Shown in pieces: positions 9,472 to 29,688 of a DNA stretch of 32,606 bases. Source of the stretch: Parcubacteria group bacterium GW2011_GWD2_38_11 (GTDB taxonomy: Bacteria > Patescibacteriota > Minisyncoccia > Moranbacterales > GWC2-37-73). The stretch covers positions 1-32,606 of the forward strand of contig LBTZ01000014.1 of assembly GCA_000992325.1 (NCBI GenBank), read 5' to 3'. The notes below the pieces were generated by a model. The model saw only the letters and a list, made by a program, of their open reading frames with translations, did no database searches and was not told the DNA's origin. Position 1 is the first letter of the stretch. The number at the start of each line of letters is the position of its first letter. The position numbers were made by a program, and so were the translations under genes.

Positions 9472-9747
9472 ATGCAGCATGTTTACTTTTTGAAAAGTAA
9501 GAAAAATAAAAAGATTTATACGGGAAGTACAGAAAAATCACCTGCTATCCGTTTGAAAGAGTATAATGAAGGATCTAATAAATGGACAAGAGAAAATGGC
9601 CCATTTGATTTGGTATATTATGAGAAATACACCTGTGAGGAAGACGCACAGGCGAGAGAAGCTTTCTATAAAACTGGATTTGGTAGAATTATTAGAAATG
9701 CGATATTGGAAACAATTGAAAAAATAAATAAGAGTAGGGACTTATAG
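9472..9747 (+). CDS. GIY-YIG domain protein (UPF0213-like)
   Basis: 91 residues, essentially one GIY-YIG nuclease-like domain: HVYFLKSKKNKKIYTGST contains the paired motifs in the relaxed form common to stand-alone UPF0213 proteins (VYFL for GIY, IYTGS for YIG), followed by RLKEYNEGSNKWTR with the conserved Arg, and a Glu-containing helix AQAREAFYKTGFGR. Small GIY-YIG proteins are abundant in CPR genomes, and their cellular role is not established. The last three codons overlap the first ten bases of tRNA-Val(GAC) (9738-9747), and the stop TAG is formed by tRNA positions 8-10. Confidence 0.85.
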   Translation: MQHVYFLKSKKNKKIYTGSTEKSPAIRLKEYNEGSNKWTRENGPFDLVYYEKYTCEEDAQAREAFYKTGFGRIIRNAILETIEKINKSRDL

Positions 9748-9811
9748 CTCAGTTGGTTAGAGCGCTACATTGACATTGTAGAGGTCTGCAGTTCGAGTCT
9801 GCATAAGTCCA
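9738..9811 (+). tRNA. tRNA-Val (anticodon GAC)
   Basis: Cloverleaf: acceptor GGACTTA/TAAGTCC, D-arm GCTC...GAGC, anticodon stem CTACA/TGTAG with loop TTGACAT, T-arm TGCAG-TTCGAGT-CTGCA, discriminator A. CCA is not encoded. Confidence 0.95.
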
Positions 9812-9814
9812 CAT

Positions 9815-9910
9815 TGCTCAGTTTCAGCCATAGGCTGACCAGCCTATGGCTGGGGTTAGAGTATCACATTGACATTGTGGGGGTCGGTGGTTCGAGTCCA
9901 CTAGCGACCA
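9815..9910 (+). pseudogene. Broken tRNA-Val(GAC) copy with palindrome in the D-loop
   Basis: The 3' two-thirds is a good tRNA: anticodon stem TCACA/TGTGG-like with loop TTGACAT, T-arm GGTGG-TTCGAGT-CCACT, acceptor 3' strand AGCGACC and A73. The 5' acceptor strand (expected GGTCGCT) is missing; upstream sequence does not pair. The D-arm halves GCTCAGTT and GGTTAGAG are separated by a 28-base palindrome. Probably a non-functional duplicate, although processing from an unusual precursor cannot be excluded. Confidence 0.7.
9825..9852. repeat. Palindromic insertion in tRNA D-loop
   Basis: CAGCCATAGGCT / AGCCTATGGCTG perfect 12-bp arms with a GACC loop. Not part of any normal tRNA; similar in style to the in-gene palindrome at 8480-8509 but different in sequence. 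Confidence 0.8.
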
Positions 9911-9918
9911 CTGAAAGT

Positions 9919-9960
9919 AATAGAAAAAGAACATCTTCTGATAGATGTTCTTTTTCTATT
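9919..9960. terminator. Bidirectional terminator
   Basis: Perfect 17-bp stem (AATAGAAAAAGAACATC and its complement) with an 8-base loop. It lies between the plus-strand tRNA-Val region and the convergent secreted-protein gene, and has A/T runs on both sides. Confidence 0.88.
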
Positions 9961-9989
9961 ATGACGCAATTCAATAAAAAATTTTGTTT

Positions 9990-11318
9990 TTAGTTGGCCA
10001 GTATGCATTTGGAGGCTGAACACTTAATTACGTTTCCTTTGCAGAGCGAGATTCCATTGCAGGCATCTTGACATTGTTTATCAGTGCTACACGTAATTGA
10101 AGGAACTGTAACATTTATAGATGGAGCCTTTATACTTCCATTCGACACAGAACCCTTTGGACAAGTTATTCTCTTTCCAGTAATATCAGTGGTTACTCCT
10201 TGTAGATCGACTGTAAAATTACCGCTGGCGCAAGTGTTACCAATTTGTAAGTCGCCACTAAATGCTCCTGCTCCAGTATTAACAGTAACACCTCCCGCAC
10301 TAATTCCAAGGCCACCGTTTAGACTGTAGGCCAAACTGAAAGGAAATTGATCGTTTTTGTTTCTGATGGCATCTTTTCCTGCAGTATCGGCCGACATATA
10401 ATTAAATGTTCGAGCTCCTATGTTTATTAATGCCCCTCCAGCAAGTTGTGCATAGGCGCCAGGAAGGTCCTTTGCTTCTTTTGCTTCAGTATTCATAATA
10501 ACTTGGGTTCCTAGTTGATCCACTTGAGATAAAGTGTTAAAAAGAATTGATGCGGGTCTAGTAATTTTTCCTCCAGATTTTTTTGGCAAAAATCCATTAA
10601 ACTGTTCATTCTTAGCTATTTCTTGAGCTTTGGCAAATTCTAAATTGTATCGCGCGGTTGAAGTAAGGCTATAGCAAGACACATTGTTGGCGCATTGCAT
10701 ATAGGTCATTATACCTTTCATATTTCCTCCGGCGAACATTTGTGTCGGATCAGTTACGAGATCTTGCAAGTTTGTCGTGAAAGGTTGACCAGCAATCGCC
10801 ATACGAGCTTGAGCTACAAGGTAGGCATCGTAGTTAGGTCCGATTCCCTCATAATTAAGTCGAGATAATCTTCCACGACTTGTGGTATTAAAAAAAGAGT
10901 TCATTTGTGCTATAGCTCGTTGTTGAGGCGAAACATAAAGATAATCATTCCAATCTGGTATAGCCCCCGCATCACCATCCCCAATAATGGCCTGAGTTAC
11001 TGTTTGAACAGCAAGCAATGTTAATATCTTGTAAGCAGTGAAGACCAAATTTAAAGTACTGGCACTGATATCTTTTGTTATAGTATAACCAAAAGCAGTA
11101 ATATCAACACCAGTACCAACGGTTGTTGCAGCAGCTGTTGTCCCAGTGGTACCCGTAATTGCTCCTTGAATAGGCAAGGCTGCACCAGTGGTAGCTGTGG
11201 TTGGAGGATCAAACGCAACCCATGCTTCAGTTCTTTGTGTTTGCAAAATAAATATTAAAACCACGCAAACAATAAGAAGGAGCGAAAAAAACTTGTTTTT
11301 GTTATTTTTTTTACTCAT
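9990..11318 (-). CDS. Exported protein of unknown function, Cys-rich C-terminus
   Basis: 442 residues. A Lys/Asn-rich start and hydrophobic helix (about 11-27) ending near TEAW look like a signal peptide. Next comes a Thr/Gly/Ala-rich low-complexity linker (about 38-70), a second hydrophobic stretch around 85-110 (LNLVFTAYKILTLLAVQTVTQAIIG), a mostly polar middle region, and a C-terminal segment with at least eight cysteines (ITCSTDKQCQDACNG...LCKGNVIKCSASKC) suggesting disulphides outside the cell. I do not recognise the family. It starts 10 bp after the Ca-binding-repeat gene and is surely in the same operon, so the two proteins probably act together at the surface, perhaps in an envelope or pilus-like structure. 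Confidence 0.75.
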   Translation of the reverse strand: MSKKNNKNKFFSLLLIVCVVLIFILQTQRTEAWVAFDPPTTATTGAALPIQGAITGTTGTTAAATTVGTGVDITAFGYTITKDISASTLNLVFTAYKILTLLAVQTVTQAIIGDGDAGAIPDWNDYLYVSPQQRAIAQMNSFFNTTSRGRLSRLNYEGIGPNYDAYLVAQARMAIAGQPFTTNLQDLVTDPTQMFAGGNMKGIMTYMQCANNVSCYSLTSTARYNLEFAKAQEIAKNEQFNGFLPKKSGGKITRPASILFNTLSQVDQLGTQVIMNTEAKEAKDLPGAYAQLAGGALINIGARTFNYMSADTAGKDAIRNKNDQFPFSLAYSLNGGLGISAGGVTVNTGAGAFSGDLQIGNTCASGNFTVDLQGVTTDITGKRITCPKGSVSNGSIKAPSINVTVPSITCSTDKQCQDACNGISLCKGNVIKCSASKCILAN

Positions 11319-11328
11319 ATAAATATGC

Positions 11329-12309
11329 TTACTCCTCTAGTTTTGAAGAATAATTTTGCAAATCAGTGGTTAAAAAATCGGAATAAAGATTTGTATAAGC
11401 ACTTATTTTTGTGCATATAGCCATACGTTCAATCGGATCGCTATCGTTTATATAGGAAAAGCCTTGAAAGGTTAGTGATAGGCCCTTTGTAATTCGTAAA
11501 AATTTAATATGCAATTCAAACATAGTCTCAGGAACTTCAACATCATTTGTCTGGTTTGTAAAAAGTTCTAGCCTATTTCCTAAGTCAACAAAATATTCCA
11601 AGTTGGTGTTCGGGTTAGAAATTGATATTAATTGGTTTTTAAAATTTTCATTAAAAGCTTCAAGATCAGTTGAGGTTAAAATAACTCCTGGCGCATTGCT
11701 TAGTAGGATATATTGCAATTTTGTGAAATACTTTTCCGCATCCGTAAACTTCTTTGTTGCTCTTTCTTCCTTGCTTAGGTTCGCATAGGGTTGCTTTAAG
11801 ATTTTGATCTGTGACGAATCGATTTCCGGCAGTGAATCAATGGTAACGGCTTGCCCTAATTTGTCAGACATAGTTCTAGTAACAAAATCATTGAGGTCTG
11901 AATTTGAAATTGGCTGACCATTCTTTGATGCGACAAATGATTGTAATTCATTTGCGAAGTTGCTAGTTAACGACTCGCTGGCGCTAGTACTACTTTGTGA
12001 ATCTGTCTCTGCTATTGAATTTGTAACTCTATCCCCTGGCGCAGGCTTCATAGGATCGTATCCACTCTTCACCTCAACTCCATCGGAATATCCGTCATTG
12101 TCGCTGTCTCCATTGCTTGCATTAGTTCCATATAGTTGTTCTTCTGCGTTAGTTAGTCCGTCGCAATCAGGATCAATAGCTTTATCACAGCTCGCCTGTC
12201 CGGCAGTTGAATCTTCAGCTTTAACATATGTTAAATAATTAAAGCCGGCAAAAAAAATACAAGCCGAAATAAGGAGAATTTTTTTGATGTGTTTTATTTT
12301 GATATACAT
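11329..12309 (-). CDS. Exported protein with thrombospondin-type-3-like Ca-binding repeats
   Basis: 326 residues: signal peptide (about 8-31, KKILLISACIFFAGFNYLTYVKA), then DPDCDGLTNAEEQLYGTN and NGDSDNDGYSDGVEVKSGYDP, two acidic D-x-D-x-D-G-type calcium loops of the TSP3/EF-hand-like kind common in bacterial surface proteins, then a Ser/Thr-rich linker and a ~200-residue helical domain I do not recognise. First gene of the pair with 9990-11318. A consensus TATAAT lies only a few bases before the ATG, so translation may begin on a nearly leaderless mRNA. Confidence 0.8.
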   Translation of the reverse strand: MYIKIKHIKKILLISACIFFAGFNYLTYVKAEDSTAGQASCDKAIDPDCDGLTNAEEQLYGTNASNGDSDNDGYSDGVEVKSGYDPMKPAPGDRVTNSIAETDSQSSTSASESLTSNFANELQSFVASKNGQPISNSDLNDFVTRTMSDKLGQAVTIDSLPEIDSSQIKILKQPYANLSKEERATKKFTDAEKYFTKLQYILLSNAPGVILTSTDLEAFNENFKNQLISISNPNTNLEYFVDLGNRLELFTNQTNDVEVPETMFELHIKFLRITKGLSLTFQGFSYINDSDPIERMAICTKISAYTNLYSDFLTTDLQNYSSKLEE

Positions 12310-12317
12310 ATAGGATA

Positions 12318-12347
12318 ATTATACTACATTTTTATTTTTTTGGACAA
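12318..12347 (-). promoter_or_regulatory. Promoter for the exported-protein pair
   Basis: Minus strand: TTGTCC (12342-12347), 18-base spacer, TATAAT (12318-12323). Predicted start near 12311, within a few bases of the ATG at 12309. Confidence 0.6.
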
Positions 12348-12416
12348 TGCAATCTCATATAGCATATAGCATAAAACATATAACATAAATAAAAATCCAT
12401 CAAAAAGGACAGTGTT

Positions 12417-12562
12417 ATACTAAATTAAATGAATCTGCCGTATGTCATTCCCGTGAAAACGGGAATCCAGGGCCAGGCCTCGCTCTGGATCCCCAGTCCC
12501 TCCATAGGCGGGCACGGCAAGCTGAGGATGACAATGTACCAGTAAATAAGTTAATTTAGTAT
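12417..12562. repeat. REP/MITE-like element B copy 1 within a 12-bp outer inverted repeat
   Basis: Core 12443-12533 begins GTCATTCCCGTGAAAACGGG and ends GCTGAGGATGACA. It nearly equals the reverse complement of 14557-14649. Left hairpin ATTCCCGT/ACGGGAAT. An outer perfect inverted repeat ATACTAAATTAA (12417-12428) / TTAATTTAGTAT (12551-12562) encloses it. Nothing coding is seen in 12348-12629; the 62-aa track ORF is a product of the repeat. A short AT tract of ATATAGCATA-like units lies at about 12357-12390. Confidence 0.75.
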
Positions 12563-12629
12563 CAGTATGATGAGTATATATATCAATATAAATAAATATA
12601 TTATACACACCGATTGGATAATGCTGGTT

Positions 12630-14393
12630 CTATTTTTCCGTCAGGTGTTCTTGTTTATGTTGACTGGCTAGAAGTGCAAACAAGATCCATAGAATTATTT
12701 GTCCTTGTTGTATATCCCAAAAATAATGATCAAAAAACATAATAAAAACAAATGCAAGAAGAATTCCTTTTAAGTAAATCAAAATTGTATTGCTTTTTAA
12801 ATTGTTCCACGTGGAACAATCCGTATCGCCTTCTGGTTTAAATTGTTTCATATGAAACAATTTAAACAAAAAATAGATAAAGCCAAATAATAAAAAAAAT
12901 CCAAATTCGTTTAGTATAAGCAGAAAAACGTTGTGAACTGGTTGGTATAGCCATGCCTCCAGTCCGTAATTGTTTACCATGCTTGGAATAAATTGCCCTG
13001 CGCCAATTCCAGAGAATGGTTTTTTCGTAAATGCTTCAATGGATATATTGACGTAGAACATTCTCTCTCGCAGGCTCTTTAGAAGTAGTGAGTCGACATC
13101 TGGCTTTGCAATTAAAAATGATAATATAAATATTCCACAGAGAAGTATAATTTTTCTTTTAAATTGTTCCACGTGGAACAATTTAAACATGTTTTGAACT
13201 CTCTTGTAAATTGTTCCACGTGGAACAATTTGGTTTTTTGAAGCTGTGTAGATATAGAATAATCCTATAAATAAGCCAAAAATTGCAGATTTTGAAAAGG
13301 TCAATAGAAGTGCAAGGCATTGAATAAGGATGATAAATTGAAATAATGTTCCACGTGGAACATTATTGATTATTTTCTTTAACAAATTGTTCCACGTGGA
13401 ACAATTTGCTTTTGTGTGTAAATCAGCTTTTTGTGTAATATAAAATTGTTCCACGTGGAACAATATTAACATAATTGAAAAAACCAAAAATCCTCCTAGT
13501 ATGTTTGGATGAGGAAACAGCCCGTATGCGCGAATATAAACATCCCCATCTAAAATAATCTTGGCGACCCCAGGCATTATTGGTGATATTGTGCTTTCTT
13601 TAAGCCAAAAAAGACCAGCAGAAGATTGTTTAATAAATTGAATGACCCCAATAATGGACTGAAATACCCCTGTCCAAATTATTATTAAGGAAAGATTTTG
13701 TAAAATGTTCCACGTGGAACATTTATTTTTGCTGATAGTGTTATTTTTCTTTGTTTCTTTGTGATGTTCCACGTGGAACATTCTTGTCAGTGTTTTTGGA
13801 ATTTGTTTGAAATAATCTTTGAATGTTCCACGTGGAACAATTTGTATTATGTAAAAATACATCAAGATAAATTCAAATAACTTGATTGATCTGTATGTGG
13901 CAATCAGCTTGTTGGTTGTCCACAGTATTGATAAAAAAGAAAAAAAGGCTATAAATAAAGGAAATATTGTTAAATAATTGTTAATAAATAGTGTATAAGA
14001 TTTTTTAATCAACAATAATGTTCCATATGTAACATTATATGTGGTGTTTTTTAAATTGTTCCACGTGGAACAATTTAAACTTGGATTGGGTTTATTTTGT
14101 AATTGTTCCACGTGGAACAATTTAAGTTTTGCTTTTATTTTAACAAAATATATTCTTAAATTTGACAAGATATACTTAATATTGTATAATATATAAAATA
14201 AAAATGTTAAAATTAAGAAGATATCAGATAGGTAGATGTATACCCCCGTATATTCATTAAAGGAATTATTAATTGGTAGATAATATAAAATTTTCCTTAT
14301 TGATAATGCGCTGGTTAATAGGAACATATAAAAAAACCAGACATCGGGTCTTGCCTTGAATGAATCCCAGCTTTGCTTGATTATATCTGACAT
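12630..14393 (-). CDS. O-antigen ligase/polymerase-like membrane protein carrying parS palindromes
   Basis: Polytopic membrane protein (about 587 residues from MSDIIKQSW) of the Wzy/WaaL-like family (Wzy_C). The diagnostic part is the C-terminal half: SIEAFTKKPFSGIGAGQF, a large loop, then YQPVHNVFLLILNEFG, matching the G-x-G / HN...E-x-G pattern of O-antigen ligases and polymerases. It would join or polymerise lipid-linked glycans outside the membrane. About 11 hydrophobic segments alternate with loops that contain, in frame, FHVEQ, CSTWN and VPRGT - the three reading frames of TGTTCCACGTGGAACA. The track starts at ATG 14411; I prefer ATG 14393, six bases after TATAAT, which implies a leaderless start. 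No glycan-assembly genes are adjacent. Confidence 0.82.
   Translation of the reverse strand: MSDIIKQSWDSFKARPDVWFFYMFLLTSALSIRKILYYLPINNSFNEYTGVYIYLSDIFLILTFLFYILYNIKYILSNLRIYFVKIKAKLKLFHVEQLQNKPNPSLNCSTWNNLKNTTYNVTYGTLLLIKKSYTLFINNYLTIFPLFIAFFSFLSILWTTNKLIATYRSIKLFEFILMYFYIIQIVPRGTFKDYFKQIPKTLTRMFHVEHHKETKKNNTISKNKCSTWNILQNLSLIIIWTGVFQSIIGVIQFIKQSSAGLFWLKESTISPIMPGVAKIILDGDVYIRAYGLFPHPNILGGFLVFSIMLILFHVEQFYITQKADLHTKANCSTWNNLLKKIINNVPRGTLFQFIILIQCLALLLTFSKSAIFGLFIGLFYIYTASKNQIVPRGTIYKRVQNMFKLFHVEQFKRKIILLCGIFILSFLIAKPDVDSLLLKSLRERMFYVNISIEAFTKKPFSGIGAGQFIPSMVNNYGLEAWLYQPVHNVFLLILNEFGFFLLFGFIYFLFKLFHMKQFKPEGDTDCSTWNNLKSNTILIYLKGILLAFVFIMFFDHYFWDIQQGQIILWILFALLASQHKQEHLTEK
12803..14119. promoter_or_regulatory. 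parS: parS-like ParB-binding site array (13 sites)
   Basis: Eleven exact copies of TGTTCCACGTGGAACA at 12803-12818, 13165-13180, 13212-13227, 13347-13362, 13388-13403, 13447-13462, 13706-13721, 13765-13780, 13824-13839, 14057-14072 and 14104-14119, plus two variants with a CATATG centre at 12844-12859 (TGTTTCATATGAAACA) and 14019-14034 (TGTTCCATATGTAACA). The 16-mer fits the ParB consensus TGTTNCACGTGNAACA. Flanks extend many copies into 20-32-bp palindromes with A/T arms. Every copy lies inside the ligase-like gene without breaking its frame; I saw none elsewhere in the window. parB is not in the window. Confidence 0.85.
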
Positions 14394-21532: not shown

Positions 21533-21615
21533 GCCCCGATGGTGGAATTGGTATACACACATGCTTGAGGTGCATGGCTTTTATCGGCATAGGGGTTCGA
21601 GTCCCCTTTGGGGCA
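21533..21615 (+). tRNA. tRNA-Leu (anticodon GAG)
   Basis: Acceptor GCCCCGA/TTGGGGC, anticodon stem CATGC/GCATG with loop TTGAGGT, long variable arm, T-arm AGGGG-TTCGAGT-CCCCT, A73. First tRNA of the array after rplS. Confidence 0.93.
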
Positions 21616-21631
21616 CAAGTTGGGGCACAAG
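21608..21631. repeat. Tandem 12-bp duplication of the tRNA-Leu 3' end
   Basis: TTGGGGCACAAG occurs twice in direct succession; the first copy is the tRNA acceptor 3' strand plus trailer. Such duplications can be slippage products or scars of integration at a tRNA 3' end. Confidence 0.75.
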
Positions 21632-21635
21632 CTTG

Positions 21636-21691
21636 GAAATTGGAAATTGATTCGCCGGCTGGCGAATTGGAAATTACGCGCATAGCGCGGC
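21636..21691. repeat. Palindromic spacer between tRNAs
   Basis: ATTCGCC-GGCT-GGCGAAT hairpin framed by GGAAATTG/TTGGAAATT units, followed by a CGCG-CATAG-CGCG-like inverted repeat. Non-coding. Confidence 0.6.
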
Positions 21692-21693
21692 AT

Positions 21694-21767
21694 GGGTGAT
21701 TAGCTCAGTTGGCTAGAGCACTTCTCTTACAAAGAAGGGGTCACTGGTTCGAGTCCAGTATCACCCA
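21694..21767 (+). tRNA. tRNA-Val (anticodon TAC)
   Basis: Acceptor GGGTGAT/ATCACCC, anticodon stem CTTCT/AGAAG with loop CTTACAA, T-arm ACTGG-TTCGAGT-CCAGT, A73, no CCA. Confidence 0.96.
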
Positions 21768-21780
21768 CATAAAATACGAC

Positions 21781-21852
21781 GCCTGAGTAGCTCAGTGGTA
21801 GAGCAGTGGATTGAAAATCCACGTGTCGTGAGTTCAATTCTCTCCTCAGGCA
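21781..21852 (+). tRNA. tRNA-Phe (anticodon GAA)
   Basis: Acceptor GCCTGAG/CTCAGGC, anticodon stem GTGGA/TCCAC with loop TTGAAAA, T-loop TTCAATT, A73. Confidence 0.96.
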
Positions 21853-21864
21853 CAATGTAAACTC

Positions 21865-21937
21865 GGGTCCTTAGCTCAGGGGTTAGAGCGGACGACTCAT
21901 AATCGTTTGGTCGCTGGTTCAATTCCAGCAGGACCCA
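21865..21937 (+). tRNA. tRNA-Ile2 (anticodon CAT, lysidine-modified)
   Basis: Acceptor GGGTCCT/AGGACCC, loop CTCATAA. CAT could be Met, but GACTCATAATCG, TTGGTCGCTGGTTCAA and CCAGCAGG match E. coli tRNA-Ile2 closely and not elongator Met. It should be the substrate of the TilS encoded at 5510-6475. Confidence 0.85.
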
Positions 21938-21942
21938 CACGA

Positions 21943-22071
21943 ACAATTTTCAATTTTCAATTCACAATTTTCAAACAATTCTCAATTCTTTAATGAGTTT
22001 ATTTCTGAAACATTTGGAAATTTAGTCATTTGGATTTGTTTAGAAATTAGAAATTGGAAATTAAAAATTCC
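21943..22071. repeat. AT-rich low-complexity inverted repeat
   Basis: CAATTTTCAATTTTCAATTC-like units on the left mirror AGAAATTAGAAATTGGAAATT units on the right, with about 50 bases between. Same unit family as the GGAAATTG words at 21636-21680. No coding potential. Confidence 0.6.
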
Positions 22072-22089
22072 ATGCTTGCATGGGCACTC

Positions 22090-22161
22090 GCGGGTATCGT
22101 ATAGTGGCTATTATACGTCCTTGCCAAGGATGAGACGGCAGTTCGATTCTGCTTACCCGCT
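22090..22161 (+). tRNA. tRNA-Gly (anticodon GCC)
   Basis: Acceptor GCGGGTA/TACCCGC, anticodon stem CGTCC/GGATG with loop TTGCCAA, T-arm GGCAG-TTCGATT-CTGCT, U73. Confidence 0.95.
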
Positions 22162-22166
22162 CCCTC

Positions 22167-23298: not shown

Positions 23299-23347
23299 TC
23301 AAAAAAATTAAAAATCCTCTTACAAAGAGGATTTTTAATTTTTTTGA
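23299..23347. terminator. Bidirectional terminator at 3' end of the lyase gene
   Basis: Perfect 23-bp stem with loop ACA, core AATCCTCTT/AAGAGGATT and long A and T runs. Lies between the convergent cassette and the PL7 gene. Confidence 0.9.
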
Positions 23348-23361
23348 ATTTTTGTAGGATA

Positions 23362-24252
23362 TTAGTGTTGCACGGAGAGTTTATAAAGAATTGCTTCCCC
23401 AAAATTATTGCCACTGCAGTCTGTTTCTTTTGAACAGTTTGATTGAGTGTATGCACCAGCTTTGAAATAATTTCCAGAACTAGATTTCTTCATTGTATAT
23501 GATGAGGTTGTGTTTCCATTGTAATAAACACTAATTTGTCCATTTGAGGCTAAAAATTTGACGGTAAATCTTTTCCCTAATTGATAATTAGGGTCTAGTG
23601 TTGGTCCTGTTTGGCCGTTGATGTCAACAAAAAGCTTGGGATATTCCAGTCTGATAACTATGACATCATCATTGGCATCATGAATTTGCCCAACAACTAT
23701 ATGTTTTTTTGTTTTTGGTACTGCGGTAATTGCTGCGTCAATGAACATAGAATGGGTGCCGGAAGTCGTCGCCCAGCTGGCAAGACTTTTCCCATCAGTT
23801 GTCATTTCACGTAATTCGCTGCGAGGGTAACCAGAGCCGCTAGTTGTAACACCATTAACTGGCGCTCTAAAAATAACCCCATCGCAAGAGGAATTTGCTT
23901 GAAAGTACGGATTTGCAGAATATGATGCAAGTGTTGCTTGTTTTATTTCTGTTGGTTTTTTGGTTGAGCCGGTTGGTAATGTTTCTTTCCATCCAGTAAG
24001 ATTTAAAACTTGTGAGGGATATTTACAGGAAACGATAACAGCCTTGTCGGGAGAAATGACTGTTTCAGTCGATTTTTTTGCAAGCTCCGTGGTTGGTTGT
24101 TCCTGACTCTTTGGTGTGTTATTGGCTTCTGTTAACCTGTTTCTACTGTTCTTTTTTGCTTGAGAGGAATTTTGGTATAGAAAAAGTCCCGCTATCAGCA
24201 TAAAGACAAAAAAACTAAAAATGGCTATTTTGCGTGTGTTTTGTTTTTTCAT
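23362..24252 (-). CDS. Polysaccharide lyase family 7 (alginate lyase-like), membrane-anchored/exported
   Basis: 296 residues: N-terminal signal or anchor helix (about 9-26), a ~45-residue polar linker, then a PL7 jelly-roll domain from about residue 76. All three family motifs are visible: RSELREM (144-150), QIH (189-191) and YFKAGAYTQ (262-270), which carry the Arg, Gln/His and Tyr of the active site. PL7 enzymes cleave alginate by beta-elimination; QIH rather than QVH usually goes with polyG or polyMG preference. Two C-terminal cysteine-containing loops suggest a disulphide. It is divergent from, and about 200 bp upstream of, the synthase operon, so it probably trims or releases the same polymer. 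It could instead be a scavenging enzyme. Confidence 0.88.
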   Translation of the reverse strand: MKKQNTRKIAIFSFFVFMLIAGLFLYQNSSQAKKNSRNRLTEANNTPKSQEQPTTELAKKSTETVISPDKAVIVSCKYPSQVLNLTGWKETLPTGSTKKPTEIKQATLASYSANPYFQANSSCDGVIFRAPVNGVTTSGSGYPRSELREMTTDGKSLASWATTSGTHSMFIDAAITAVPKTKKHIVVGQIHDANDDVIVIRLEYPKLFVDINGQTGPTLDPNYQLGKRFTVKFLASNGQISVYYNGNTTSSYTMKKSSSGNYFKAGAYTQSNCSKETDCSGNNFGEAILYKLSVQH

Positions 24253-24452: not shown

Positions 24453-25475
24453 ATGAAAAAAGCAAATTCAAAAAAAATAGCTATCATTGGCAGTGGAATT
24501 GTTGGGCAAGCTACTGGGAAGGGGCTTGCAAGGGCTGGTCATAATGTTTTGTTTTATGATAAAAATCCCAACATTATTAAAACATTGAAAAATGATGGTT
24601 ATCACGCCGATCATATCGAAAATCTTTCCACCGTCGAGACCGATGAAATAGAGATTTTTATGATAAGTGTGCCGACTCCAACGAAAGAGGGGCGGGTGGA
24701 GTTAAGTTTTTTAAATGAGGCACTTACTAGTCTCGGAAAGGCAATAAAAGAAACAGAAAAAAACCCAATTTTTGTGGTCAGGAGCACAGTTCCTCCTGGT
24801 ACAACAGAAAATTTAGCAGTTTCTGTTTTGGAAAAAGAATCTGGGAAAAAAGCAGGGAAAGACTTTGGAATTTGCATGAACCCGGAATTTTTGCGAGAAG
24901 TTAGTGCTGAAAAAGATTTTATGAATCCATGGATGGTGGTTATTGGCTGTGATGATAAATCAGCTGGATTAGCATTGGCAAAAATTTATAAAATATTTAA
25001 ATGTCCAATTGTGCATATGTCTCTTAAGGAGGCAGAGATGATGAAATATGCTCATAACCTCTTAAACGCAACAAAAATATCTTTCTTCAATGAAATGCGT
25101 CTTGTTGGAGACAAGATGGGGGTTGATTCGGAAGTTTTTTTCCCTGCGGTAGTCAAAAGCGCAGAGGCGATGTGGAACCCTGAATATGGGACTAAAAATT
25201 TTGGACCTTATGGCGGAGTCTGTCTTCCAAAGGACACGGAGGCATTTTTTACTTGGGCCTTGGAAGTAGCTGATTTTGAAATGCCAGTTTTGAAAGGCAC
25301 AATTGCTACCAATAAGTTGATGCAAGAAAGTGTGACGGTTGAACAACAAATCAATGTCCATTCTTATCATATTGTTCCTGCATTAAAAAATAATTTTTTA
25401 CAGAGGGAATTTTCAAAAAAAACAAAAAATAAAAATACTTTTCAATTTGATGGTGCTAGCAGTATTCCGCTATAA
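24453..25475 (+). CDS. UDP-glucose/GDP-mannose dehydrogenase family protein, C-terminally short
   Basis: 340 residues. NAD-binding Rossmann GSGIVG (13-18), SVPTP (72-76), VRSTVPPGTT (109-118), NPEFLRE (143-149), the central helix with AEMMKYAHNLLNATKISFFNE, and the catalytic cysteine in GGVCLPKD (Cys257). Such enzymes oxidise NDP-sugars to NDP-uronic acids; AlgD makes GDP-mannuronate. UDP- versus GDP-sugar cannot be read here, because the C-terminal nucleotide-sugar domain (about 90-100 residues in full-length ~430-residue enzymes) is mostly missing: after residue ~290 the sequence is short and polar. First gene of the synthase operon, with the fusion gene starting 20 bp after its stop. Confidence 0.85.
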   Translation: MKKANSKKIAIIGSGIVGQATGKGLARAGHNVLFYDKNPNIIKTLKNDGYHADHIENLSTVETDEIEIFMISVPTPTKEGRVELSFLNEALTSLGKAIKETEKNPIFVVRSTVPPGTTENLAVSVLEKESGKKAGKDFGICMNPEFLREVSAEKDFMNPWMVVIGCDDKSAGLALAKIYKIFKCPIVHMSLKEAEMMKYAHNLLNATKISFFNEMRLVGDKMGVDSEVFFPAVVKSAEAMWNPEYGTKNFGPYGGVCLPKDTEAFFTWALEVADFEMPVLKGTIATNKLMQESVTVEQQINVHSYHIVPALKNNFLQREFSKKTKNKNTFQFDGASSIPL

Positions 25476-25494
25476 AAATGCTAATAGTAAAAAA

Positions 25495-28269
25495 ATGAAC
25501 GAGGAACTCATTCGATATTGGAATATGGTTATTTTTTTTATACCGCTTGGGTTGGTGGGTATTTGGAGATGGTCAATTTGGTTGGTAAAGAAAAGTATTT
25601 CTTTTTTTTATCGTGATCCAAATGGAAATTTTTATTCAACGCTTTCCATTGTGACTCCTGTATATAATGAAGATCCCGAGATGTTTCGCTTGGCGCTAGA
25701 ATCATGGAAATTGAATTCGCCGAATGAAATTATTGCCGTTGTAGACCAGAGTAATTCTGAGTTGATTAAACTTTTTGAAAATTTTGCAGCTGATTTTGTT
25801 GGAGCAAAATTGATAGTCACAAATATTCCAGGAAAACGGGCAGCGTTGGCTGATGGGATCGAGGCGTCTAGCGGTGAAATTATTGCATTGGTGGATAGTG
25901 ATACTATCTGGGATTATGACATAAAATGGAAATTGCTGGCACCTTTTTCAGATGAAAAATTGGGAGGACTAACAACTCGTCAGGATGTTTTGGAAACAAA
26001 TACGCTTGCCAGAAAACTTTTTAAAATACTTTTGGATGAAAGATATCTACTGGAATATCCTTTTCTGACAACTATTTCAGATGCCTTGCTGTGTCTTTCT
26101 GGACGAACGGCGGTTTACAGAAGAGCGGCCATAATAAACAAAACAGATGAGTTGGTAAATGAAACTTTTTGGGGGCAAAAAATGATAAGCGGTGATGATA
26201 AGACGCTGACTAATTTGGTGCACATTGATGGCTGGAAAACAATTTTTTTAAAAAATGTTAAAGTGTACACGCCAGGAGCTTTTAATCTAAAAACTTTTTT
26301 TGAACAAAAATTGCGTTGGGCAAGGAATGGTCTGCGGTCTGATTCAAAGGTTTTGTTGAGCGGTTGGATATGGAAAGATCATAAAATATTAGCTCTTTAT
26401 ATGTTAGATAAGATGGTAGCGCCTATCGCGCTTTTGCTGGGCCCTGTTTATTTGGGTGTTTCTCTGTATTTTGGACATTGGGAAATCGCTGTGATTATTT
26501 TGGCTTGGTGGCTGGTAAGTCGAACAATTAAAATTCTGCCACATCTCAAAGAAAAACCCGCAGACATCTTTCTTTTGCCAGTGTATATATTGATGACATA
26601 TGTGATGGCGGTAATTAAAATTTATGCCTTCTTTACTTTGGATAAGCAGGGTTGGATTACTCGTTGGGATGCAGCTCGCTTAAATGGTCTTCCTTTGTTT
26701 AGACAGCTGGTGGCTTTTTTGTTGATTATTCTTTTTATCGGCGGCTATTTTTTTGCTGTCGGTTCATATTACAATAATGTTTCATCGCCACCATTGGCAA
26801 AAACGAAAACAAAAATTTTTGTAAGTGTAATTTCTGAAGAGCCACGATTAATTTCAAATAATGAACTTTTGCAAAAAAGAAATGCTACACTTGCCAGCAA
26901 AAGTGATGCCTATGGATTCTATTTGATTAGACCGGGAGATTCGCTGTCTGTTTTGCAAAAAAGATTCAATCTTGGCAATATAACCTCAATAATGTATGCA
27001 GGAAAAGTGCCAATAAAAAATATTAATCGTATTCTTGTTGGCGAGAAAATTATGATTCCTGTGACTGAATTGCTCAGGCCCCTGGATGCCAATAACTTGC
27101 TTAGTAATGAATTTGGACAACGTCCGCCGCTAATTTCTTTTAATAAAAATTCAAATACTATTTATATCAAAGGTGGTGGCAGTGTGGTAACTCTAACCAA
27201 AATAAGAACGGCTTTGCAAAATAATAAGGATATGCTAGAAGAACAAAAACCAGGAGAATGGATCTTGCGTTCCAATCTTTATATCGGGAAAAATGTTACA
27301 TTGGTTGTTGATAAAAGCGAGACTTCTTATCTGAAACTTAAAAGTGATGATAGTGGGCATATTTGGGTTCGCTCACAAGGAGGAAATATTCTTATTTCAA
27401 ACACGAAGATCACTTCTTGGGATGAAACAAAAAATTCTCCTGATATGAAATACATTGATGGGCGTAGTTTTATTGTGGCAAAAAGCAGTGGCAGGATGGA
27501 TGTGATAAATTCTGAAATTGGTTTTCTTGGCTATGAAGGTTTGCCAAGAAGAGGGGGGCCTTTTGGAGGATCATATGGATTGTCCTGGAAAATAACCAGT
27601 GGCACCTTTGAAAATAATCTTTTAACAGGTTCGTTAGTAAACAGCTTGATTCATCATAATTATTTTGGCGTATACACTTTTGGTGTCACGGGGCTGGTGA
27701 TAAAAAATAATAAGGTTTTTGAAAATATTCAATACGGAATTGATCCACACGATGATTCTAATAATTTATTAATTACCGCTAATGAATCTTATAGCAATGG
27801 CAATCACGGTATAATCATTTCTAAGAGATGTGTCAATAATGAAATTTCACAAAATATTTCACGCAACAATCGATTACACGGAATAATGCTAGACCGCAAT
27901 TCAAACAATAATATCGTGAAGGACAATGTGATATTTGGAAATGTTGACGGCATTGCACTTTATGAATCAAATAATAATTTGGTTTTTCAAAATAATATTT
28001 ATCAAAACAAGCAAGGAATTCGTCTTAATCAAAAATCATCATTAAATTATATTGAAAAAAACAAAATTACAACCAATGTGAGTGGCGTTCATCTGTATGG
28101 CGAAGCCAATAAGAATATTTTTTTGGAAAATGAAGTAACAAATAATGGTGTTGGTGTTTCAATTCAAAATGCCTTTGCAAATGCGCTTTATGATAGTCTA
28201 AAGTTTCTGGGAAATAAAAAAGATGCGTATATAACTGTTAATAATAGCGAAAATGAAATTAAGCGATAA
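25495..28269 (+). CDS. Fusion: processive GT2 synthase - LysM - AlgG-like mannuronan C5-epimerase
   Basis: 925 residues from ATG 25495 (MNEELIRYW), a start that avoids overlap with the previous gene; the track begins at 25447 and its numbering is used here. One TM (about 27-47) precedes a GT2 domain (66-310) with LSIVTPVYNE, DSD (150-152), SGDD (248-251) and QKLRW (287-291), the hyaluronan-synthase/Alg8 pattern. Several TM helices follow (about 315-440), then LysM (about 490-540: YLIRPGDSLSVLQKRF), then a right-handed beta-helix (about 570-935). Within it YGIDPHDDS (763-771) and NHGIIISKR (786-794) match the catalytic DPHD and neighbouring motifs of AlgG epimerases. So polymer synthesis, extrusion and mannuronate-to-guluronate conversion seem to be in one chain. 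No PilZ/Alg44 or AlgK/E partner is visible. Confidence 0.88.
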   Translation: MNEELIRYWNMVIFFIPLGLVGIWRWSIWLVKKSISFFYRDPNGNFYSTLSIVTPVYNEDPEMFRLALESWKLNSPNEIIAVVDQSNSELIKLFENFAADFVGAKLIVTNIPGKRAALADGIEASSGEIIALVDSDTIWDYDIKWKLLAPFSDEKLGGLTTRQDVLETNTLARKLFKILLDERYLLEYPFLTTISDALLCLSGRTAVYRRAAIINKTDELVNETFWGQKMISGDDKTLTNLVHIDGWKTIFLKNVKVYTPGAFNLKTFFEQKLRWARNGLRSDSKVLLSGWIWKDHKILALYMLDKMVAPIALLLGPVYLGVSLYFGHWEIAVIILAWWLVSRTIKILPHLKEKPADIFLLPVYILMTYVMAVIKIYAFFTLDKQGWITRWDAARLNGLPLFRQLVAFLLIILFIGGYFFAVGSYYNNVSSPPLAKTKTKIFVSVISEEPRLISNNELLQKRNATLASKSDAYGFYLIRPGDSLSVLQKRFNLGNITSIMYAGKVPIKNINRILVGEKIMIPVTELLRPLDANNLLSNEFGQRPPLISFNKNSNTIYIKGGGSVVTLTKIRTALQNNKDMLEEQKPGEWILRSNLYIGKNVTLVVDKSETSYLKLKSDDSGHIWVRSQGGNILISNTKITSWDETKNSPDMKYIDGRSFIVAKSSGRMDVINSEIGFLGYEGLPRRGGPFGGSYGLSWKITSGTFENNLLTGSLVNSLIHHNYFGVYTFGVTGLVIKNNKVFENIQYGIDPHDDSNNLLITANESYSNGNHGIIISKRCVNNEISQNISRNNRLHGIMLDRNSNNNIVKDNVIFGNVDGIALYESNNNLVFQNNIYQNKQGIRLNQKSSLNYIEKNKITTNVSGVHLYGEANKNIFLENEVTNNGVGVSIQNAFANALYDSLKFLGNKKDAYITVNNSENEIKR

Positions 28270-29536
28270 GATAGCTTTATTGGGGTTTGCATTACTGCTG
28301 GTTGCATTAGCAATGGGTTTTGTATGGTGGAAAAAAATTAATAAAGAAGGAGTGCAAGTAGAAATTAAAATAGATGAAATTGAAGATGAAAGGGGATTGG
28401 GATATTCTGGTCAAAGAAAAATTGTTGTTGATAAAAATGGCGATGTTTTTGTGGCTTATCGAAAAAAGTATGAAGGAAAGTCGGAGATATTTGTGGCAAA
28501 GGTTTTTAGTGACAAAAACGAATGGAAAATATCAGGAACAGAAAATCCAATTTCTGCAGTTGACAGAGACTCTGATCAAAGGGTTCCCTCTATCGCAGTT
28601 GATAATAAAAACAATATTCACGTTGTTTGGTATGGTAGCGATACGATAAGTCAGACAAATAATCGCCAAATTAAATATTCCAAATCACAAGATGGTGGAA
28701 CAAGTTGGACAGTATGGAAGAATATTTCTTTTGTCGATGGTTATGATAAAAAAGATGATTATTGGCAAGAACATCCTTATCTTCTTGTTGGTGCAAACGG
28801 AGAGTTGTTTGCTGTATGGGAGGGAAAAGATAAAGAAAATAAGCATCAACAAATAAAATTTTCCAAATCAATTGATGATGGAGAGACTTGGAATAGTTGG
28901 AAAAATATCAAAGCAACACCAGAAAACACTCAATCTCGGCCGACCCTTGTCCAAAGCAAAGCGGGCAGATTATTGTTGTTTGCATATTCTTCTATTGGCA
29001 GTGAAAACGGCAATCAGCAAGTTGTTTTTTCTTGGTCGGATAATGGAGGGGATGATTGGAGTGATTGGGAAATAATTTCTGATCCATCATATGATTCGCG
29101 ACATGTGAGCGCGACTATGGATAATAAAGATAATTTACATTTGGTTTGGCGCTCGCAAAAATCTTCAGAACCTTCCGCCATTTTGTATCGTTCATTGCGG
29201 GGTGGATCCTGGTCTGAGATAAAAGAAGTTGCTTTTTCAAATCGGTATCAATTTTTTCCTAGTATTGGTGGCACTGAAAATGGGAAAATAAATATCACCT
29301 GGATGGAGTCTGAAAAAAAATCTAATCTCCCCACTGAAAACCCTGAGGGTGGAAAAATTTATAGAACAGTTTTGAATTCCAATGAATTTTTCAAGCCCAT
29401 TGAAATTAGCAAGGGAAATAATAATCTGTATCCTCATATTCCTGAAACATTTAAAACAAGTGTTGTGCCAGCAGTGTATGAATCAGGCGAACCCTCTTCG
29501 AAAAATTTTGGTTTAATACTTCAACTGGTTAGATAA
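28253..29536 (+). CDS. Membrane-anchored BNR/Asp-box beta-propeller protein
   Basis: 427 residues: an anchor helix (about 8-26), then a predicted beta-propeller with three clear Asp-boxes (SxDxGxxW): SKSQDGGTSW (143-152), SKSIDDGETW (204-213) and SWSDNGGDDW (260-269). Sialidases and related glycan-acting or glycan-binding proteins share this repeat; I do not see the sialidase arginine triad or FRIP motif clearly, so enzymatic activity is uncertain. It overlaps the fusion gene by 17 bp, so it is translationally coupled and probably works on or holds the same polymer outside the cell. Ends the operon before a terminator. Confidence 0.8.
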   Translation: MKLSDKIALLGFALLLVALAMGFVWWKKINKEGVQVEIKIDEIEDERGLGYSGQRKIVVDKNGDVFVAYRKKYEGKSEIFVAKVFSDKNEWKISGTENPISAVDRDSDQRVPSIAVDNKNNIHVVWYGSDTISQTNNRQIKYSKSQDGGTSWTVWKNISFVDGYDKKDDYWQEHPYLLVGANGELFAVWEGKDKENKHQQIKFSKSIDDGETWNSWKNIKATPENTQSRPTLVQSKAGRLLLFAYSSIGSENGNQQVVFSWSDNGGDDWSDWEIISDPSYDSRHVSATMDNKDNLHLVWRSQKSSEPSAILYRSLRGGSWSEIKEVAFSNRYQFFPSIGGTENGKINITWMESEKKSNLPTENPEGGKIYRTVLNSNEFFKPIEISKGNNNLYPHIPETFKTSVVPAVYESGEPSSKNFGLILQLVR

Positions 29537-29660: not shown

Positions 29661-29688
29661 AATAGAGCCGTAAATGGCTCTATTTTGT
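29661..29688 (+). terminator. Terminator of the polysaccharide operon
   Basis: AATAGAGCC / GGCTCTATT 9-bp stem, loop GTAAAT, then TTTTGTTATTT, about 125 bp after the stop. The 29537-29660 stretch holds nothing else I can support. Confidence 0.8.

Follow-up and report, generated by a model that had tools for sequence, protein, structure and literature searches.

A recurrent GT2 polymerase-epimerase fusion in Patescibacteria points to a compact, Alg8-independent route to alginate

Introduction

Can a reduced bacterial genome encode the polymerisation and the epimerisation of an uronate chain on one polypeptide and, if so, which polymer would such a protein make? The question is raised by a locus of Parcubacteria group bacterium GW2011_GWD2_38_11 on contig LBTZ01000014.1, whose 32,606 nucleotides (forward strand; the whole stretch analysed here, hereafter the window) include a long open reading frame that a first-pass annotation had described as an alginate-like GT2 synthase fused through LysM to an AlgG-type C5-epimerase, and as seemingly new. 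Our literature search, with subscription papers and preprints outside its scope, found no report of a GT2-epimerase fusion, and the architecture indeed appears to be undescribed. Fused synthase subunits as such have a known example in the single-chain BcsA-BcsB cellulose synthases, but there the partner of BcsA is a co-polymerase subunit rather than a polymer-modifying enzyme (PMC8461298).

Results

A GT2 polymerase and an AlgG-type domain in a single frame

The frame is open from a TTG codon at 25447 to 28269 (940 aa), and starting at the ATG of 25495 gives an N-terminus in line with those of relatives. All the motifs named in the first-pass annotation were located in the fusion, whose features are as follows (window positions):

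25495..28269, plus strand: fusion of a GT2 polymerase, a LysM-like linker and a predicted AlgG-type C5-epimerase, 924 aa (Pfam, NCBIfam, PDB alignment, relatives and model)
25507..25566, plus strand: N-terminal transmembrane helix (hydropathy; model helix 2-36)
25642..26364, plus strand: GT2 catalytic domain (Pfam PF13641, 6.6e-21; motifs invariant or nearly so)
25894-25902, plus strand: GT2 motif DSD
26188-26199, plus strand: GT2 motif SGDD
26305-26319, plus strand: GT2 motif QKLRW (QxxRW)
26647..26664, plus strand: QGWITR, aligning with the WGTR loop of hyaluronan synthase
26674..26775, plus strand: last transmembrane helix (model and hydropathy; would put the C-terminal half outside)
26920..27063, plus strand: degenerate LysM-like linker, residue pattern still visible
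27157..28089, plus strand: predicted AlgG-type beta-helix epimerase domain (NF038177, 6.8e-43; 4nk6, 2.3e-36; Foldseek)
27742-27753, plus strand: epimerase motif DPHD, within YGIDPHDD
27805-27828, plus strand: epimerase motif HGIIISKR

Pfam and NCBIfam matches to both halves lie within this frame, and full-length homologues with 45-56% identity are found in the same order, eight of them with little or no change in the glycosyltransferase and epimerase motifs, which excludes chance as the source of the fusion and bears out the original description of one open reading frame carrying a GT2 and an AlgG-type domain.

The C-terminal half is, on strong sequence grounds, a predicted AlgG-type mannuronan C5-epimerase. 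The NCBIfam AlgG mannuronan 5-epimerase model (NF038177) matches residues 571-881 of the 940-aa frame with 147 bits, far under its curated equivalog cut-off of 700 bits, and Pfam beta-helix families match the same half. Solved AlgG (PDB 4nk6) is alignable over about 290 residues, with YGIDPHD on YGIDPHD in register, and is also the best Foldseek match of the model (E 2.6e-19, TM 0.75 on the target). Fold and alignment agree on an AlgG-like right-handed beta-helix whose DPHD block aligns with the active-site block of AlgG, a placement on which the first-pass annotation had made its proposal depend. The histidine of this block has been named catalytic in 4nk6, and a brown-algal study of 2024 used DPHD to tell true mannuronan epimerases apart (PMC11468063). 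Besides its low score, the domain differs from AlgG in being tethered to a synthase and in the residue aligned with the AlgG arginine that follows HGIIIS, which is a lysine in the fusion, followed directly by an arginine that all eight of the nearest fusions share.

Hydropathy analysis yields five hydrophobic segments, the fourth of which aligns with the hyaluronan synthase helix just before the WGTR loop, a helix that we take to be an interface helix. With segment 4 assigned in this way, a single membrane helix would follow the WGTR-like loop and the epimerase half would lie outside the membrane, whereas it would face inward if segment 4 were to cross. An AlphaFold2 model built from an alignment of 35 fusions has a mean pLDDT of 89.6 and a pTM of 0.55, so that the relative placement of its two halves is unreliable. 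As for the LysM domain, which had been credited with holding the protein at peptidoglycan, Pfam PF01476 detects it at E <= 0.01 in 16 of 35 fusions, the fusion of the window not among them; the domain is recognisable yet degenerate here, and peptidoglycan anchoring is a suggestion from the relatives.

The fusion recurs across Patescibacteria

A single-sequence query of a genome collection returned no relatives; an alignment query returned 79 loci in named genomes. GT2 and epimerase share one open frame at 41 of these, mostly in Patescibacteria (Moran-, Roizman-, Davies-, Levy-, Curtiss-, Woese-, Ames-, Nomura- and Falkowbacteria, and WWE3), and stand as separate neighbours at another 24, the usual state in Saccharibacteria, Chloroflexota, Actinomycetota (Streptomyces included) and Nitrososphaerota. 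The fusion is one conserved form of a more widespread GT2-epimerase linkage, not the one-off oddity of a reduced genome that it could have been taken for, and its presence in one frame at 41 loci rules out misassembly or frameshift as its origin. Of 96 relatives, some ten have the fusion, whole or in part, and 380 genomes sampled evenly across the phylum hold only three strong AlgG-type matches, all in long fused frames.

Several loci show further arrangements. The fusion at L026 (genome G013, 9486-13309) has a disrupted N-terminus, and in another genome (G063, L028/L099; L028 4461-7125) GT2-LysM and epimerase occupy separate overlapping frames. Two GT2-epimerase fusions flank the short dehydrogenase described below at L083 and L092, possibly for different polymers or lengths. 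Five Nitrososphaerota loci (L113, L115, L116, L119 and L121) combine a GT2, a short dehydrogenase encoded divergently and, 3-4 kb off, an AlgG-like protein; the dehydrogenases carry a UDP-glucose-type KYTSNCFL stretch and the epimerases are without the plain DPHD pattern used, and their polymer may therefore differ.

The polymerase half resembles hyaluronan synthase and NodC rather than Alg8

Searched against solved structures, the N-terminal half matched viral hyaluronan synthase, and the Foldseek matches of the model that follow AlgG are hyaluronan synthase (TM 0.67) and then cellulose synthase (TM 0.37). The GT2 has the DxD, catalytic D, QxxRW and C-terminal membrane helices of hyaluronan synthase/NodC-like processive enzymes, shares with hyaluronan synthase (PDB 7sp7) and NodC the GT2 domain, the QxxRW motif, the aligned WGTR-like loop and a similar membrane architecture, and is nearest to these two in sequence, tree and fold. 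Three Alg8-like GT2s sit in the tree on a branch 6.9 changes per column from the fusion GT2 clade; all three references are rhizobial, and their operons hold an AlgG homologue, AlgK-like repeats and a full-length dehydrogenase. The deeper order of the tree, with its long branches, is unsure, but the fusion GT2s clearly stand far from the Alg8-like enzymes. A sequence search of the PDB found no solved Alg8.

Judged by sequence, the GT2 belongs with the hyaluronan synthase/NodC-type enzymes and away from Alg8, so that the protein would not be a fused Alg8-AlgG. The Alg8 kinship implied by the first-pass annotation accordingly falls away, but the link to uronates that it had expected is present in the neighbourhood, and the GT2 differs from hyaluronan synthase and NodC both in forming a clearly separate clade and in its association with a mannuronate-type dehydrogenase, an AlgG-type epimerase and a PL7 lyase.

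Two plasmid loci are of separate interest. Curtobacterium plasmid pTCL (L146, 7917-12488) carries a related GT2 with a glycosyl hydrolase and a full-length dehydrogenase, possibly a sister system for another polymer. A Rhizobium sp. BG6 plasmid (L147, 5198-21862) carries an unannotated alginate-like operon with a full dehydrogenase, an Alg8-like GT2, a 1246-aa protein with an AlgG domain and AlgK-similar Sel1-repeat proteins.

A PL7 lyase and a short dehydrogenase accompany the fusion

The fusion lies in a compact cassette, whose remaining features are:

23300..23346, strand unassigned: near-perfect, terminator-like hairpin below the PL7 lyase gene
23362..24252, minus strand: PL7 alginate lyase with QIH motif, divergent from the dehydrogenase (Pfam PF08787, 1.9e-44; 1uai)
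24453..25475, plus strand: short nucleotide-sugar dehydrogenase of brown-algal GMD type, N-terminal and central domain only, 19 bp upstream of the fusion
28253..29536, plus strand: BNR beta-propeller protein with N-terminal hydrophobic segment, overlapping the fusion by 17 bp
29661..29684, plus strand: terminator-like hairpin after the BNR gene

The lyase and the dehydrogenase, neither of which the first-pass annotation mentioned, strengthen its link between the fusion and an alginate-like uronate polymer. The lyase scores 152.6 bits against PF08787 (cut-off 29.7), and its best match is the polyguluronate lyase 1uai (5.9e-72). Sister genomes of the same genus keep the cassette's flanks in order (by sequence resemblance, genes for ribosomal protein L19, a 3D-domain protein, a uracil-DNA glycosylase-like and a phosphodiesterase-like protein) with the cassette itself missing and other genes in the interval between L19 and the 3D-domain gene, and five same-genus genomes hold no close homologue of the fusion. 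The cassette, PL7 gene included, thus forms one unit between conserved flanks, which, with the sisters lacking the fusion, indicates that the lyase travels with the synthase. PL7 occurs in six of the 96 relatives, all six of them fusion carriers (Fisher 9e-8, a significance inflated by the kinship of the fusion genomes), and these six genomes fall in four families. A cluster of five tRNA genes (21533-22163) immediately precedes the variable slot occupied by the cassette.

At 69 of the 79 loci, in four phylum-level groups, a short dehydrogenase is encoded no more than 3 kb away. The window's copy has no Pfam match to the C-terminal domain PF03720, and in the tree the short dehydrogenases form one clade, lacking that domain by length, which spans the four phylum-level groups, archaea included. 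Almost every member retains the catalytic Lys, Asn, Cys and Asp; with these residues kept and the truncation common to the whole clade, a pseudogene is ruled out as the reason for the short length. One Saccharibacteria copy (L126, 9169-10002) is without the catalytic Cys motif and may be inactive. Viral contigs gave no match to the fusion and distant matches to the short dehydrogenase; it is carried by the viral-class contigs L156 (4531-7768) and L155 (4995-5867), one of which has a PL7 lyase nearby.

The residue pattern of these enzymes follows that described for brown algae. Two Saccharina GDP-mannose dehydrogenases (GMDs) of 320 and 315 aa have been proven to convert GDP-mannose to GDP-mannuronate, and the brown-algal enzymes are set apart from bacterial GMDs by, among other residues, Val in GxGVVG and Pro two positions before GGxCLPKD (PMC4782291). 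The window's dehydrogenase carries GSGIVG and PYGGVCLPKD; the variable position of GxGxVG is V, F or I in 29 of 29 short dehydrogenases and Tyr in most full-length references, and the residue two before GGxCLPKD is Pro in 28 of the 29 and Ala or Gly in most full-length references. With the C-terminal domain missing, a short length comparable with the roughly 300-320 aa of that type, Cys in GGxCLPKD, a non-Tyr residue in GxGxVG and the Pro, it has the traits of a brown-algal-type short GMD. An Ectocarpus enzyme, described by Tenhaken in 2011, is likewise said to have no C-terminal domain.

Discussion

Which polymer would the cassette make?

The AlgG-like epimerase with its DPHD block, the co-occurrence of PL7 with the fusion and the short dehydrogenase of brown-algal type all speak for alginate, and we consider it probable that the locus is a compact alginate-making cassette with an Alg8-independent synthase, whose chain is epimerised on leaving the membrane. 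The short dehydrogenase would convert GDP-mannose to GDP-mannuronate, from which the GT2 half would polymerise mannuronate at the cytoplasmic face and thread the chain through its own membrane channel; outside the membrane, the tethered AlgG-type half would turn mannuronate into guluronate on the emerging chain, and the PL7 lyase would trim, release or clear the product, with no use of Alg8, Alg44 or AlgE. The idea of a tethered machine that polymerises and epimerises, put forward in the first-pass annotation, thus stands as far as domains, fold, conservation and neighbourhood are concerned, but was wrong on the Alg8 kinship of the GT2 and overstated a LysM domain that is degenerate.

Against alginate count the position of the GT2 nearest hyaluronan synthase and NodC, the AlgG score under the cut-off, the lysine at the AlgG arginine position and an apparent gap in precursor supply: a full GDP-mannose pyrophosphorylase was not found in the window's genome, which is 90% complete, nor in two of five sister genomes, whereas most relatives have one. 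A piece at G000 C16:11606 was not counted, the N-terminus of its ORF not being that of a pyrophosphorylase, and the enzyme (GMP-PMI) was dropped as a discriminator, since 94 of the 96 relatives have some match.

The affinities of the GT2 would also suit a glucuronate-based chain (glucuronan, or a hyaluronan- or heparosan-like polymer) made from UDP-glucuronate, with the beta-helix turning glucuronate into iduronate. The short dehydrogenase aligns equally well to UDP-glucose and GDP-mannose dehydrogenases, and the window's genome has other, full-length dehydrogenases of UDP-glucose type. We nonetheless regard such a polymer as unlikely, for the epimerase has the fold and DPHD of the mannuronan type, the lyase that co-occurs with the fusion is closest to a polyguluronate lyase, and the dehydrogenase has the substitutions reported for brown-algal GDP-mannose dehydrogenases. 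Quite improbable, in our view, is a beta-helix without epimerase activity that serves as a binding or lyase-like domain in polymer export or surface attachment: such repeats are common to lyases and NosD-like proteins, AlgG itself has a non-catalytic scaffold role too (PMC3815931), and the lysine substitution would fit, but DPHD, conserved in most relatives, is nearly invariant together with its surroundings in about 60 homologues, and the basic pair K/R-R is retained in Patescibacteria. That the cassette acts on external alginate, degrading or remodelling algal polymer while the GT2 makes an unrelated polysaccharide, is very improbable: PL7 enzymes commonly degrade external alginate and alginate lyases are widespread in degraders (PMC11468063), but GT2 and epimerase form one chain with the dehydrogenase 19 bp upstream, the linkage recurs in four phylum-level groups, and no uptake or downstream alginate-catabolism gene was seen beside the cassette.

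A cassette unlike the proteobacterial machinery

Read as an alginate system, the cassette shares with the machinery of Pseudomonas and Azotobacter (AlgD, Alg8-Alg44, AlgK-AlgX-AlgE, AlgG and AlgL) a co-encoded dehydrogenase, GT2, AlgG-type epimerase and lyase. It differs in that its GT2 groups away from Alg8 and forms one chain with the epimerase, its dehydrogenase is without the C-terminal domain and its lyase belongs to PL7. AlgE, an outer-membrane porin and hence not to be expected where that membrane is missing, was found in none of nine fusion genomes, and PilZ, the domain of the Alg44-type c-di-GMP receptor, was found in two of the nine and absent from seven, the window's own genome included.

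The brown-algal pathway (short GMD, mannuronan synthase and ManC5-E) offers, in published descriptions of its enzymes, a different set of likenesses: a short GMD with the reported substitutions, DPHD epimerases and GT2s that share no homology with Alg8 (PMC11468063). Its mannuronan synthase was unidentified as of a 2024 survey, which also reports that the brown-algal GMD matches a Woesebacteriota protein best, at 40% (PMC11468063); at one Woesebacteria locus (L094), short dehydrogenase, fusion and PL7 lie side by side. An actinobacterial origin was earlier proposed for the algal GMD, synthase and epimerase (PMC8307928), and that of the GMD was later judged not strongly supported (PMC11468063). 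By its sequence features, the cassette fits this debate on the origin of the algal alginate genes and would sharpen it. We suggest, tentatively and with more doubt than conviction, that it may be the prokaryotic counterpart of the brown-algal pathway, with a GMD of algal type and a GT2 clade related to the algal mannuronan synthase. There would then be two unrelated lineages of alginate synthase, Alg8 and the GT2 clade of the fusion, the latter ranging across Patescibacteria, Chloroflexota, Actinomycetota and ammonia-oxidising archaea.

Our best reading of the fusion cassette is a new form of alginate biosynthesis, with alginate as the polymer we infer. Alginate would then be made without Alg8, Alg44 or an envelope-spanning export complex, by one membrane protein and a precursor enzyme, and Patescibacteria, probably together with other non-proteobacterial groups, would join the alginate makers; Streptomyces, according to a recent survey, is not known to possess an alginate pathway (PMC11468063). 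The cassette supplies a small fusion for rebuilding alginate synthesis from purified parts, as well as a concrete GT2 clade with which brown-algal genomes can be searched for the mannuronan synthase, and the missing polymer-making enzyme of brown algae becomes a directly testable question.
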